A DNA stretch of 37,827 nucleotides, taken from assembly GCA_017619355.1 (NCBI GenBank), contig JAFZSO010000068.1, positions 1 to 37,827 on the forward strand, read 5' to 3'. This document shows positions 22,345 through 27,010 of the stretch, piece by piece. The notes under the pieces are model-generated. The model worked only from the letters and a program-made list of their open reading frames with translations, did no database searches and was not told the DNA's origin. The stretch's first letter is position 1; every line of letters starts with the position of its first letter. Source of the stretch: Muribaculaceae bacterium (GTDB taxonomy: Bacteria > Bacteroidota > Bacteroidia > Bacteroidales > Muribaculaceae). The position numbers were made by a program, and so were the translations under genes.

Positions 22345-22382
22345 AAAGCGGGGCTGGTGTGTGGTGTGCCAGCCCCGCTTTT
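22345..22382 (-). terminator. Terminator of the sigma/DUF4252 operon
   Basis: AAAGCGGGGCTGG (22345-22357) is fully complementary to 22369-22381. The 13-bp stem with an 11-nt loop is 50 bp downstream of the last gene (minus strand, stop 22432). The stem's own outer A/T pairs act as the U tract, so it can work in either direction. Confidence 0.75.
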
Positions 22383-22431: not shown

Positions 22432-22887
22432 TCAGAAGTCGAGGTCACGGGCCTCGTCGAGTGTGAGCGCGCCGGTGATGTTGACAATATTGACCTCGTT
22501 TTGTGAGGTAGAGAGAATGATGTACTCGAAACGGCCGTTGCCCAGGTCGCGCTGCAGGATCTGAACCAGTTCCTTTCCCTCGCGGGTGGACATGACTTCC
22601 TCGTAGTTGTTCTTCTTGATGTAGTTGAGCAGGTCTTTCTTGATTTTACCAGCGGTGCTCTTCTTGTCGCAGGAGAGTACGCGAATGTGGTCGAGCTTGT
22701 TGGCAGTGTCCTTCACCTTCTTGTTGCCCGTCTTGAGTTTGGGCATGAGTCGCAGCATATTCTTGGATATGTTGACCAGGGTGACACCGTCTTCCGATCC
22801 ATACTTCTTGAAAATGGCATCCTGTGCCTGCGCTGTGAAGGCGATGGAAGTTGCCACAATCAAGGCTAAGATAATGATTCGTTTCAT
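22432..22887 (-). CDS. DUF4252 exported protein
   Basis: A 151-residue protein with a signal peptide (1-21, ending TAQA) and a body that resembles DUF4252 (GVTLVNISKNMLRLMP, then IIKKNNYEEVMSTREGKELVQIL-like strand/helix, IILSTSQNEVNIVNITGALTLDEARDL). The family is restricted largely to Bacteroidetes and is associated with ECF sigma factors. It is the last gene of the locus, 5 bp after the small chimeric gene, with which it shares its first 51 residues (67% identical). A second DUF4252 gene lies at the other end of the locus (24190). Function unknown; possibly sensing or target of the sigma factor. Confidence 0.85.
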   Translation of the reverse strand: MKRIIILALIVATSIAFTAQAQDAIFKKYGSEDGVTLVNISKNMLRLMPKLKTGNKKVKDTANKLDHIRVLSCDKKSTAGKIKKDLLNYIKKNNYEEVMSTREGKELVQILQRDLGNGRFEYIILSTSQNEVNIVNITGALTLDEARDLDF

Positions 22888-23285
22888 AGTGTTTATCTGT
22901 TGATATTCTTGAGTAAATGGGAAATCTGGCTAATTTTTTCGAGATGGCTACAGCCCTTGTTAAGCGTTTTCGAGAACAGAATGAGTGACTGCTCGGTGGT
23001 GGTGTAGGCTATTTTGGGCATATCGCGGAACATGTTCTTGGGCATGCTGACCATTGCGACGCTGTCCTCAGGCGCATGCTTCGGAACGGTGGCATCCTTT
23101 GCCTGTGCGGTAAAAGCGATGGAAGTTGCCACAATCAAGGCTGAGATGATGATTCGTTTCATAGTGTTCAATAATTAGTGTTCTTGAGTGATTGGGTGAT
23201 TTCGCTTATTTTTTCGAGCTCGTCGCAACCTTTGTTGATGGTCTTCGAGAGCAGAGCGAGCGATTGCTCGGTGGTGGCGTAGGCA
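22735..23285 (-). repeat. 275-bp tandem duplication spanning anti-sigma tail to DUF4252 start
   Basis: Two imperfect copies abut: about 23010-23285 and about 22735-23010. Matched landmarks differ by exactly 275 bp: GCTCGGTGGTGG at 23266 and 22991, the start-codon motif GTTTCATAGTG at 23156 and 22881, GGGCAT at 23016 and 22741. Each copy runs from the end of the anti-sigma gene into the first 51 codons of DUF4252, including the short spacer. The middle join makes the chimeric gene (22893-23162). Divergence is about one third at protein level in both halves, so the event is not recent. Confidence 0.9.
22893..23162 (-). CDS. Chimeric exported small protein: DUF4252 N-terminus fused to anti-sigma tail
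   Basis: An 89-residue protein. Residues 1-51 (MKRIIISALIVATSIAFTAQ...KNMFRDMPKI) match the first 51 residues of the downstream DUF4252 protein at 34/51 positions, including its signal peptide. Residues 52-89 (AYTTTEQSLILFSKTLNKGC, LEKISQISHLLKNINR) match the last 38 residues of the upstream anti-sigma protein at 26/38. So it is a chimera created by a 275-bp tandem duplication. The start is ATG 23162, 5 bp after the anti-sigma stop; the next gene starts 5 bp after this stop. The frame has stayed open despite about one-third divergence, which argues for selection. If expressed it would be a soluble periplasmic copy of the anti-sigma tail. Confidence 0.8.
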   Translation of the reverse strand: MKRIIISALIVATSIAFTAQAKDATVPKHAPEDSVAMVSMPKNMFRDMPKIAYTTTEQSLILFSKTLNKGCSHLEKISQISHLLKNINR

Positions 23286-23662
23286 AGTTCGGGCGAGTCA
23301 TAGGTGTCGGCATTGAGGTCGATTGTCGGCTTGGAAAGCAATGAGAAACCTATGGTGGCAACTACGGCAATCGAGGCCGCTATGCCAGTGGCCCATAGCC
23401 AGCGGTGCTTGCGAGTGCTGACTGTAGCGGGCTGGAAGGCCTTTTCGGCAGCCTGCCAGGCATCAATCTTGTGACTGAGCGTGTCCTCGAGTTGCTGAGC
23501 CTTCTTCTCGTTGAAAATGTTGAGGAAGTAGGCCTGCTCAGCCTTAAGGCTGTCGGGCACCTGTTGCGAGCTGAAGAACTGCAGCAGTTCTTTCTCTTCT
23601 TGTGCTGTGGTGTTGCCGTCGAGGTACTTGTCAAACAGCTGTTGTGCAAATTCGGTTGTCAT
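23168..23662 (-). CDS. Single-pass anti-sigma factor-like protein
   Basis: A 164-residue membrane protein that follows and overlaps the sigma factor by 32 bp. N-terminal part (1-87): acidic helical region with LFDKYLDGNTTAQEEKELLQFF, a zf-less anti-sigma-like start typical of Bacteroidetes, then one membrane helix (about 88-110, HRWLWATGIAASIAVVATIG). The C-terminal tail (111-164) would be periplasmic and includes TTEQSLALLSKTINKGC and LEKISEITQSL, the stretch copied in the chimeric gene. Order sigma then membrane partner is the standard layout. Regulated release of the sigma factor is an inference. Confidence 0.85.
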   Translation of the reverse strand: MTTEFAQQLFDKYLDGNTTAQEEKELLQFFSSQQVPDSLKAEQAYFLNIFNEKKAQQLEDTLSHKIDAWQAAEKAFQPATVSTRKHRWLWATGIAASIAVVATIGFSLLSKPTIDLNADTYDSPELAYATTEQSLALLSKTINKGCDELEKISEITQSLKNTNY

Positions 23663-24161
23663 AGTTCAAAAGAGTTTTAAATCGACTGAATACTGATTTT
23701 CTTGCCCGGCTCAAGATGACGCGCACATTGGCCTCGGTGTTGCCCGTCTCGAGGGCAATGTCGGCATACTCGTCGTCGTAGATGTCGCGGCGGGTGATGA
23801 TGTGGCGCTGCACGGCTGGCAACTCATCGATGCACTGCTTGAGCAGCGATATGTGCTGCTGATGCTCCACTTCGTCTTCCACATCCACATCGGCCATGAG
23901 TGGCAGGAGGTCAGGTGGTCCGGCATCGAGTGCATCGTGTGAGGCACGCTTGGCATCGAGGCACAGGTTCTTGACCAGGGTGATGCAGTAGGCCTCATCG
24001 TTAGTCACATGCTGCAATTCATCGCGCCTGTTCCATAGTTTCATGAAGGCCTCCTGTACGATGTCCTCGGCATCCTGCTCATTGTGCATGATGCTAAAAG
24101 CCGTCCAGTGCAGTTTGCGGGTAAACGGCAGGAACCGTAGTTTAAAGGTCTCAGAATCCAT
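23631..24161 (-). CDS. ECF-type RNA polymerase sigma factor
   Basis: A 176-residue sigma-70 family ECF protein. The start was set at 24161 (MDSETFKLRF) since the longer frame to 24233 adds low-complexity residues overlapping the upstream DUF4252 gene. Region 2 is AFSIMHNEQDAEDIVQEAF (about 21-39) with MKLWNRRDEL; region 4 includes ELPAVQRHIITRRDIYDDEYADIALETGNTEANVRVILSRARKSV (HTH). The stop overlaps the anti-sigma gene by 32 bp. It lies between two DUF4252 genes in one operon, so it probably transcribes its own locus. No target promoter could be identified by eye. Confidence 0.92.
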   Translation of the reverse strand: MDSETFKLRFLPFTRKLHWTAFSIMHNEQDAEDIVQEAFMKLWNRRDELQHVTNDEAYCITLVKNLCLDAKRASHDALDAGPPDLLPLMADVDVEDEVEHQQHISLLKQCIDELPAVQRHIITRRDIYDDEYADIALETGNTEANVRVILSRARKSVFSRFKTLLNYDNRICTTAV

Positions 24162-24189: not shown

Positions 24190-24657
24190 TTACATGCCCA
24201 TTTTGCTGAGCTGGTTGAGCTCGTCGGGGGCAAAATTACCGTTCATGCGCACAATGGCACACTCCTTGGCATCGGCCTGGAAAATGAGCATTTCGCTGTA
24301 GCTCTCGCCATCGCGTTTCATCTTGATGATGACCTGCTCGCCATCTTCGCTGGAGCGAACGAGTTCCTCATAGGTGTCGTCGAAGTCGTTCACCATGTCA
24401 ACCACTTGCTTGATGGTGGCAGCATCGGCGTTTTCAAACTGGAGAATATCGAGCGAGTTGATTTTCTCGGTCACCTTCTTCTGAGCCTCATCGGTTCCCT
24501 GATTCTGTGCCATGGCCATCGCGAGCATTTCCTGCGGAATGGTCATGAACTGGGCGTTCTCAGCATCTTTGAATTTATTGAAGAGATCGTCGGAGTTAAT
24601 AGCTGATGCCCAGCAGCAAGTGAGGGCGAGAGCGAGGGTTAAAAGAATCTTTTTCAT
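24190..24657 (-). CDS. DUF4252 exported protein (first gene of the sigma operon)
   Basis: A 155-residue protein with a signal peptide (about 1-19, MKKILLTLALALTCCWASA) followed by the DUF4252 body: FNKFKDAENAQFMTIPQEML, INSLDILQFENAD and VIIKMKRDGESYSEMLIF, ending FAPDELNQLSKMG. It precedes the sigma gene by 28 bp and presumably is its operon partner. It is a distant paralogue of the gene at 22432; the two share the family fold but little sequence. It may be the stress sensor or effector of the sigma system; unproven. About 110 bp upstream precede a 701-residue TPR gene. Confidence 0.85.
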   Translation of the reverse strand: MKKILLTLALALTCCWASAINSDDLFNKFKDAENAQFMTIPQEMLAMAMAQNQGTDEAQKKVTEKINSLDILQFENADAATIKQVVDMVNDFDDTYEELVRSSEDGEQVIIKMKRDGESYSEMLIFQADAKECAIVRMNGNFAPDELNQLSKMGM

Positions 24658-24771: not shown

Positions 24772-26877
24772 TTATCGGTTGATGCGTTTGAGCACATTAT
24801 AACTGGGCAAAATGCCGAGTTCGCCCGCCTTGCTCAGGTCGGCCACGCCACGCTCACGGTTGCCCAGACGCAGGTAGGTGAGCCCGCGGTTGTAATAGGC
24901 CTCGCCCAGGTCGGGTTTAATCTCTATGCAGGTCGAGAAGCAGTTGATGGCGCTGGTGTAGTCGTTGAGCAGCAGATAGACGCAGCCCTTATTGTAGGTG
25001 GCATAGACATTCTTGGGCGAACGCTTGAGCACCTCGTTGAGGTCGTCGATGATCTTAGAGAGAATCTCGTTCTGCTCACGACCATGAAGCATGGCGGCAG
25101 CTTCTTTGTCGCGCTCGTCGAGCACAGGCATCTCGTCGTTAGCCACACCTTTCTGCGCCAGGCGATAGAGCAGGTAGTGAGCGTCGGCACGCAGGAAATA
25201 GGCAAGCGCAAAGTCCTTGCTCAAGGCAATCGTGCGGTCGGCATCGGCGAGTGCAGCGGCAGGGTTCTTGACCATCATGAAGTCGATGGCGCGGGCAAAG
25301 TAGTCGATGGCGCGTGGCGTGGCGGTGGTGATGAGTCCGTTGTAGTATTCAATACTGGTGAATCGCTCGGTGATTTCATCGGCGCTGAGCTGCATCTCGT
25401 CGTTGGCGATGACGAGCATCTTGGGCAGGAGCGACGATTCGTTGACCTCGGTGATTTCCTTCATGTAGTGGGTCTTGCCGTTGAGTTTATTCACCTCATT
25501 ATAATAAGAGAGAAGGAACATGGGTTGCGGATCGATCTCCACATTGCTGTTCTGGATGCGTCCGCGGCTACGGTTCTCGTACTCGGGCTTCAAGCTGTTG
25601 TCGTTCTCGACGGTGAGCAGGGAGTTGAACTTCTTCATGATGTCCTCCTCGGTGAGTTCCTCCTCGATGCCATCGGCTGCGCGCTGGGCACGCTCCTCGG
25701 CCTCCTTCTCCATTTTCTGCGCCTCTTGCTCGGCGGGGTTGTAGGTAGCCACGCGTATGCCTTTCTTCTTGAAGATGGCGATGGCCTGCTGCATGTCGCG
25801 CTCGCTGCCACGCAGGTCGCCGGATTGCTGTTTGGCCTGCGCCCTCGCCATGTAGCCCGACTCGAAGTTGGGATACTTGTTGAGGATGCGGTCATAGTCC
25901 TTCACCGCCTTCTTGAACTGCTGGGTGCGCAGGTAGAGCTGGGCACGGTTATAGAGGGCGAGAAAGTTGTTGGGCTCAAGCTTGAGCACACGCGAGAAGT
26001 CGTCGATGGCCTTGAGGTCCTCTCCCACCTCGGCATTGAGTTGGGCGCGGTTGTAGATGGCGATGGCATTGTCGGGCTCGAGGCTCACGGCATAGTCGTA
26101 GTCGCTCATGGCGCCGTAGTAGTCGTCGAGCTTGTAGCGCAGGAAAGCGCGGTTGATGAAGTTGCCGGCATAGTGCGGTTCGAGCTTGATGACCTCATCG
26201 AGGTCTTTGACGGCAGCTTCGTAGTCGTTGTTGGCCTTGAGGTTGATTTCGGCACGCATGGCGTAGGCCATGGTGGAGTTCTTGGTGATTTCGAGACTCT
26301 TGTTCACCTCTTCGAGCGCACGGGTGGTGTCGCCGGTAGCGAGCAGCAACTGTGCCATGCCCAGGTGGGCTCGGTCGTTCTTGGAGTCGAGCCTGGTCAA
26401 AACGGCATAGGTGGAGTCGGCTACGGCGTAGTTCTTGAGTTCGGTTTCGCAAATGGCCTTGTTGAGCAGGAAGACCTTGTTCTCGGGCAGTTGCGAGAGT
26501 CCCTTATCGTAGTCCTGAACTGCCTCCTTGAACTTGCGCTGGTTCTGGCGCGCCACGCCTCGCACCTGATAGGCATCGGTAATGAACGGGTTGCGCTCGA
26601 TGCACAGCGAGGCATCTTCCTCGGCACCGCGATAGTCCTCGAGATTGATTTTGGCCACGGCGCGGAAGAAATAGGGCTCGGCAAGATAAGGCTTGGCGGC
26701 AATCACCTGATTGAAATACTGGATAGAGAGGATGTAGTCCTCAAAATAGAGCGCGTTGCGGCCAATGTTCAGCACCTGGTCGGTATTGATCTGGGCGTGT
26801 GCCGGACTGCCGCTCAGCAGCAAACCAAGGCAGGCCACAAGGCGCAGCAGCGAGTATGTCAAACTCAGGCGTTTCAT
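24772..26877 (-). CDS. Large exported TPR-repeat protein
   Basis: A 701-residue protein. The start at 26877 follows a promoter and gives a signal peptide (about 1-28, ending SPAHA); a frame extends back to 26919. The mature part is made of tetratricopeptide repeats: residues 30-400 hold about ten with the A-Y-NRA-L pattern (for example YEAAVKDLDEVIKLEPHYAG, YNRAQLNAEVGEDLKAIDDF). A charged segment (about 400-435, AEQEAQKMEKEAEERAQ) and a beta-rich section (430-520) split them from a C-terminal set (ATYNKGCVYLLLNDYTSAINC). It probably forms a protein-binding scaffold in the periplasm or outer membrane. Partner unknown. It is probably separate from the sigma operon. Confidence 0.9.
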   Translation of the reverse strand: MKRLSLTYSLLRLVACLGLLLSGSPAHAQINTDQVLNIGRNALYFEDYILSIQYFNQVIAAKPYLAEPYFFRAVAKINLEDYRGAEEDASLCIERNPFITDAYQVRGVARQNQRKFKEAVQDYDKGLSQLPENKVFLLNKAICETELKNYAVADSTYAVLTRLDSKNDRAHLGMAQLLLATGDTTRALEEVNKSLEITKNSTMAYAMRAEINLKANNDYEAAVKDLDEVIKLEPHYAGNFINRAFLRYKLDDYYGAMSDYDYAVSLEPDNAIAIYNRAQLNAEVGEDLKAIDDFSRVLKLEPNNFLALYNRAQLYLRTQQFKKAVKDYDRILNKYPNFESGYMARAQAKQQSGDLRGSERDMQQAIAIFKKKGIRVATYNPAEQEAQKMEKEAEERAQRAADGIEEELTEEDIMKKFNSLLTVENDNSLKPEYENRSRGRIQNSNVEIDPQPMFLLSYYNEVNKLNGKTHYMKEITEVNESSLLPKMLVIANDEMQLSADEITERFTSIEYYNGLITTATPRAIDYFARAIDFMMVKNPAAALADADRTIALSKDFALAYFLRADAHYLLYRLAQKGVANDEMPVLDERDKEAAAMLHGREQNEILSKIIDDLNEVLKRSPKNVYATYNKGCVYLLLNDYTSAINCFSTCIEIKPDLGEAYYNRGLTYLRLGNRERGVADLSKAGELGILPSYNVLKRINR

Positions 26878-26888
26878 TGTTTTGGTTG

Positions 26889-26896
26889 CAAAAATA
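26889..26896 (-). promoter_or_regulatory. -7 promoter element of the TPR gene
   Basis: On the minus strand TATTTTTG matches TAnnTTTG, 11 bp before the ATG at 26877; the leader would be very short. Confidence 0.5.
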
Positions 26897-27010
26897 GTGT
26901 TTTCTGCACTACATCGCACAAGTCTTTCAGTTATAATGCATAAGTTTAACGAAGATTAACCACACAGGCGATAATGGCTGTAAAGGGTGCGGTAGAGCGG
27001 AATTTTTTGC

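Follow-up and report, generated by a model that had tools for sequence, protein, structure and literature searches.

An 89-codon open reading frame in a Muribaculaceae sigma-factor operon joins the start of a DUF4252 gene, in frame, to the tail of an anti-sigma-like gene, and sequence comparisons support its origin in a single short-junction tandem duplication that spans 275 nt, ends at 9-nt near-repeats and left both parents whole. Purifying selection on the new frame is moderately supported, by small samples, and the kept parts appear to be an export signal and a tail motif, AYxxTExxLxxxSxxLNKG, the DUF4252 piece having drifted into a linker. We give a probability of about 0.45 to the reading that the selected chimera is an exported, free anti-sigma tail that competes for the tail's partner and so would tune the ECF sigma factor.

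The window, the whole 37,827-nt stretch of DNA that was analysed, carries on its minus strand, in order, genes for a TPR protein, DUF4252A, an ECF sigma factor, an anti-sigma-like membrane protein, the 89-codon frame, DUF4252B and an iron-containing alcohol dehydrogenase:

24772-26919, minus strand: TPR protein.
24190-24657, minus strand: DUF4252A, the DUF4252 gene 5′ of the sigma gene (PF14060, 80.6 bits; cut-off 23.9).
23631-24161, minus strand: ECF sigma factor of the PG0214/GFO_1088 family (NF058625, 151.6 bits; cut-off 130).
23168-23662, minus strand: anti-sigma-like membrane protein of 164 aa, the intact parent of the chimera tail (adjoins the sigma gene; homologue identity).
22893-23162, minus strand: chimeric 89-aa frame, DUF4252B start plus anti-sigma tail (open frame, in-frame joint).
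22432-22887, minus strand: DUF4252B, the intact parent of the chimera start (PF14060, 79.9 bits; cut-off 23.9).

We infer that the gene following the sigma gene encodes an anti-sigma factor from its position, its well-predicted helical N-terminal part, a hydrophobic helix (residues 91-108, at low model confidence) and sub-cut-off matches, as no Pfam match of the protein reaches its gathering score and the NCBIfam antisigma model gives 16.3 bits against a cut-off of 100. The protein is 83, 78 and 76% identical to those of three close relatives. Another PG0214/GFO_1088-family sigma factor scores above the cut-off elsewhere in the genome of the window (contig C5, 9022-9513; 142.5 bits) and is adjoined by a weak anti-sigma match (C5:9543-9668). 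On the 3′ side of DUF4252B, an inverted repeat spotted by eye, AAAGCGGGGCTGG...CCAGCCCCGCTTT (window 22345-22382), is possibly the operon terminator; it is absent from the output of the repeat scan, in which the loop limit was 3-8.

The chimera lies at the head-to-tail joint of a direct tandem repeat that spans the junction of the anti-sigma and DUF4252B genes. The elements of the duplication are:

23013-23287, minus strand: repeat copy A, anti-sigma tail plus chimera start.
22738-23012, minus strand: repeat copy B, chimera tail plus DUF4252B start.
23286-23294, minus strand: short junction repeat in the anti-sigma gene, GCCCGAACT.
22736-22744, minus strand: short junction repeat in DUF4252B, GCCCAAACT.

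The two 275-nt copies align without a gap at a spacing of 275 with 75% identity (207/275 positions, versus 71.3 ± 7.3 in 2000 shuffles; z 18.6), and identity drops to 12/40 and 17/40 outside the repeat ends. An assembly artefact is ruled out by the 68 of 275 positions at which the copies differ. The duplication ends on a 9-nt near-repeat, GCCCGAACT and GCCCAAACT being alike at 8 of 9 positions, and the chimera joint (23011-23019) lies 275 nt away from each of them, which is the layout of a short-junction duplication. The same pair of junction repeats is found in the single-copy relatives G015 and G119, and G069 differs from it by one base in each. A preliminary description of this DNA had proposed that one 275-bp tandem duplication explains both partial matches of the frame and their join; the ungapped repeat, the position of the joint, and the relatives described below bear this out, and the two halves do align far better than chance, as it had required. 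Its smaller observations are likewise reproduced: the frame is open over its 89 residues, a 5-nt spacer, ACACT, separates stop and ATG in both copies, 34 of the first 50 residues match DUF4252B (16 changed), and 26 of the remaining 39 match the anti-sigma tail (13 changed), the earlier figure of 26/38 having omitted the first residue.

The unduplicated form that the preliminary description proposed to seek in close genomes is found. A search with the anti-sigma model matches 29 of 101 genus genomes at E ≤ 0.001; besides the window's own, eight have strong matches (E ≤ 5e-15) and were inspected, and the other 20 match weakly. In all eight the anti-sigma/DUF4252 junction is single-copy, with the first DUF4252 start −4 to +37 nt from the anti-sigma stop, and a second tail match occurs in one of the 101 genomes, that of the window. 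The duplication is thus derived. In the wider family, a full-length match to the chimera is found in one of 397 genomes, again the window's own. Nine of the 397 give any match at E ≤ 0.01; above 25 bits there are only the chimera and its parental genes, together with the counterparts of both parents in G015, G069 and G119, and weaker partial matches occur in G222, G313, G380, G408 and G077 (E 0.0026-0.009). Furthermore, among the best 30 of the 184 sigma loci matching in 247 family genomes, 27 have an anti-sigma followed 3′ by a DUF4252 frame (one of the 27 being G015 again), and three (L055, L065 and L069) have no such DUF4252 frame. In none of the 27 is there a similar insert: the DUF4252 frame opens no further than 82 nt past the end of the anti-sigma frame, and the DUF4252 start lies within 99 nt in the 23 loci for which start codons were taken, so the examined loci have no space for a chimera-like gene.

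The chimera copies residues 126-164 of its 164-residue anti-sigma parent and takes its hydrophobic N-terminus from DUF4252B. It can be divided into four parts:

23100-23162, minus strand: signal peptide, codons 1-21, from DUF4252B (AQA cleavage motif, by eye).
23013-23099, minus strand: DUF4252-derived linker, codons 22-50, eroded (15/29 residues changed).
22953-23012, minus strand: anti-sigma tail core, codons 51-70, IAYTTTEQSLILFSKTLNKG, conserved (profile score).
22896-22952, minus strand: distal copied tail, codons 71-89, indistinguishable from drift.

Neither parental identity extends to the chimera. It is without the cytoplasmic sigma-binding part and the transmembrane helix of an ECF anti-sigma, and it matches no Pfam family at E ≤ 0.1, PF14060 (DUF4252) included, with NCBIfam model NF058626 giving 19.6 bits against a cut-off of 150. 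The predicted DUF4252B fold has its first strand at residues 35-41 and extends to about residue 148; as modelled, the chimera, which ends at DUF4252B residue 50, could not form it. The parental anti-sigma tail is modelled as a long helix at low confidence only (pLDDT about 51-63).

The two halves of the chimera have fared differently. We scored each part against family profiles of 35 anti-sigma and 34 DUF4252B sequences, parent included (L055, L065 and L069, whose anti-sigma match is weaker than 1e-10, and L067, which is G015 again, were left out of both, and L059 also out of the DUF4252B profile), and compared each score with those after equal numbers of neutral changes. The tail core, with five changes in 20 residues, scores 37.2, close to the parent (37.7) and well above neutral change (21.4 ± 5.2; P = 0.0015). 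Against distant homologues only, it scores 30.8 versus 29.5 for the parent (P = 0.007), a fit to the distant family slightly closer than the parent's. The split at residue 70 was chosen after the residue alignment had been examined; the whole undivided tail gives P = 0.009 and 0.038, and the distal tail is no different from drift in the same test (P = 0.38 and 0.53). The DUF4252 part, with 15 changes in 29 residues, scores 1.5, versus 54.1 for the parent and 3.4 ± 8.7 for neutral change (P = 0.58 and 0.66). The preliminary description had taken both halves to be kept alike, and this does not hold: residues 22-50 did no better than neutral drift, whereas the anti-sigma core is fully kept.

Other measures of the same alignment are mixed. 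At conserved columns, the tail has 0 disruptive changes of 11 (1 of 11 in all) and the DUF4252 part has 7 of 12 (p = 0.005 or 0.027), a test on which we lean less than on the profiles, the columns having been picked after the alignment was seen. A permutation test on column entropy alone finds no significant excess of variability at the changed tail sites (p = 0.10), and changes in the DUF4252 part tend to fall on conserved columns (p = 0.058). The copied motif AYTTTEQSLILFSKTLN matches the family pattern, and the tail motif is found in 21 of 35 homologues; the tail start is no more amphipathic than shuffled sequences (0.18 in the chimera, 0.12 in the parent). The single Cys of NKGC is retained, as the preliminary description had pointed out, and this is weak evidence because Cys occupies that column in 3 of 34 other aligned anti-sigmas. 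The signal peptide differs from that of DUF4252B by one nonsynonymous and five synonymous changes, hence by one residue in 21, and its profile score does not differ from drift (P = 0.45). Taken together, the tail core has been kept without a membrane anchor and joined to an export signal, the latter judged from sequence and conservation, and the product resembles a free, exported tail of an anti-sigma, carried by a linker that has eroded.

In the relative G077, the tail motif AYxxTxxxLxxxSxxLN occurs twice in tandem in the anti-sigma (L014:1408-1929, minus strand; residues 127-143 and 147-163), the compared pieces being alike at 8 of 21 residues. G077 is the only one of 35 anti-sigmas with two matches, and the pattern was written after both had been seen. 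The same tail element may have multiplied independently there, and the tandem pair hints that motif copy number can vary in the sigma/anti-sigma/DUF4252 system.

Codon models argue for selection on the frame. We fitted these to 84 of the 89 codons in five sequences, from the chimera, its parents and three of the eight relatives (G015, G069 and G119). Omega on the chimera branch is 0.29, compared with 0.067 in the background (p = 0.004 versus 1; p = 0.002 versus background). By part, omega is 0.07 for the signal peptide (p = 0.006), 0.19 for the DUF4252 part (p = 0.016) and 0.17 for the tail (p = 0.045), all versus 1 and all on long, poorly determined branches, so that the dN/dS by half called for in the preliminary description lies below 1 in both halves at that precision. 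Of 120 data sets simulated with omega of 1, two give a test value as high as the observed one (in one of these omega is below 1), and two have an omega as low. Polarised counts, which do not depend on the tree and take sites at which the three outgroups all agree with the parent, give 26 nonsynonymous and 11 synonymous changes, an omega-like ratio of 0.44-0.53, with p = 0.025 without transition bias and 0.065 with it; with one outgroup, p = 0.013-0.046. Split by part, these counts are mostly non-significant. The selection that the preliminary description had inferred is therefore upheld by the codon model and the simulation, and is tempered by the small samples and the range of the polarised counts.

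These results also bear on a simpler account, in which the chimera is a non-functional remnant of the duplication, its frame kept by luck, and only the two parents matter. The borderline polarised count and the apparently neutral DUF4252-derived part would fit such a drifting by-product, and so would the presence of the chimera in a single genome, from which the statistics behind the claim of a working gene are drawn. The open frame by itself is not very unlikely, the probability of a stop-free frame after 30, 40, 50 and 68 neutral changes being 0.355, 0.282, 0.188 and 0.115. However, drift would not readily account for an omega below 1, simulation included, for the retention of the tail core, or for 275 nt without an indel. 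In addition, young tandem repeats are readily lost, as in Staphylococcus aureus, where comparable chimeras reverted by loss of the duplication (PMC3486894), and the survival of this one to 25% divergence suggests that it was being retained. We consider the by-product account somewhat unlikely.

The reading that we prefer, an exported competitor, would work as follows. The chimera would be made from the sigma operon, exported and cut after AQA. The parental tail follows the hydrophobic helix and, given the usual topology, would lie outside the cytoplasm, so a free, soluble copy in the periplasm could compete with the membrane-bound anti-sigma for the tail's partner, perhaps DUF4252B, a protease or, through self-association, the tail itself. 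As a member of the operon, the chimera would rise in level with the sigma factor and might set the threshold or duration of the response. The effect could take either sign, because the partner may promote release or may stabilise the anti-sigma. Speculatively, the single Cys of both tails and the DUF4252B Cys (residue 73) could form mixed disulfides. A stronger version, that the operon made a secreted competitor of its own anti-sigma sensor in one duplication, borrowing promoter, start site, export signal and binding element from two neighbours, with selection then refining the ends as the middle decayed, is possible but doubtful.

Selection could instead have acted on something other than competition: the chimera might have taken on a new role as a small periplasmic protein, or might be kept as an insert that alters the translation of DUF4252B relative to the anti-sigma. 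The gene junctions are tight, with 5-nt spacers, so an insert could change translational coupling to DUF4252B, and the changes at many DUF4252-conserved sites of the linker could mark a new role. A mere spacer, however, would not retain the family tail core, and we regard such alternatives as unlikely.

The duplication itself likely postdates the split from the three close species. Over 84 codons, the best tree that pairs the copies as sisters leads the best separating tree tried by 9.9 lnL units (−809.86 versus −819.71; five of the possible trees were tried, three of them separating the copies). This preference comes mostly from the signal peptide (12.5 lnL units), the DUF4252 part and the tail lying within about 1.3 units; the sister grouping of the copies has 68% bootstrap support on nucleotides. 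Six sites group the two copies apart from all three outgroups, five of them in alignment columns 100-149, and 20 informative sites split the copies. The signal-peptide stretches (23100-23162 and 22825-22887) differ at 6 of 63 nt, far less than the rest of the copies, and synonymous change in this stretch is low between species too (pS about 0.2); their likeness may come from constraint on the start region or from partial gene conversion around it. A duplication older than the split, lost by recombination between the copies in each of the three relatives and followed by gene conversion that made the starts alike, would fit the splitting sites, the bootstrap value and, through a conversion tract, the clustering of the uniting sites, but it stands against the codon-model tree and would need several independent losses to leave eight of eight inspected relatives single-copy, and we judge it quite improbable.

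A search of one open-access library returned precedents from S. aureus and Serratia marcescens and no report of this chimera. In S. aureus, repeats of 7-8 bp gave rise to short-junction duplications in which a downstream start is fused in frame to the sigH body; the authors described these chimeras as, to their knowledge, the first bacterial example (PMC3486894). As in the window, a tandem duplication at short repeats placed a downstream start in frame on an upstream body and left the parents intact. The sigH duplications, as described, were spontaneous laboratory isolates of 1.2-1.9 kb that reverted and carried nearly the whole sigma factor, whereas the present one is found in a natural genome, spans 275 bp, has diverged by 25% and carries a short tail only. 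In S. marcescens, HasSCTD, the periplasmic domain of the anti-sigma HasS, strongly lowers signalling output when produced by itself in the periplasm, an effect most likely due, according to the authors, to the trapping of a component (PMC3984077). HasSCTD, which is partly disordered, and the chimera, as predicted from its sequence, would both be free, exported periplasmic domains of an anti-sigma; unlike the chimera, HasSCTD is an artificial construct from a heme-acquisition anti-sigma, and the likeness drawn here is one of proposed action. In Porphyromonas gingivalis, PG0214-PG0216 encode an ECF sigma factor, a putative anti-sigma and a DUF4252 protein and are listed as upregulated together (PMC10101095). 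Their order is that of the window, and the passages on these genes mention no chimeric gene between the anti-sigma and DUF4252, unlike the window.

The route of birth is therefore known, and what appears to be new is a naturally retained case, 25% diverged, with single-copy sister species and part-wise conservation. With a diverged chimera beside both of its parents, it can be asked how such genes survive and what they keep. In this instance the retained parts point to the anti-sigma tail core as the working part of a widespread, little-studied sigma/anti-sigma/DUF4252 system of the Bacteroidota.
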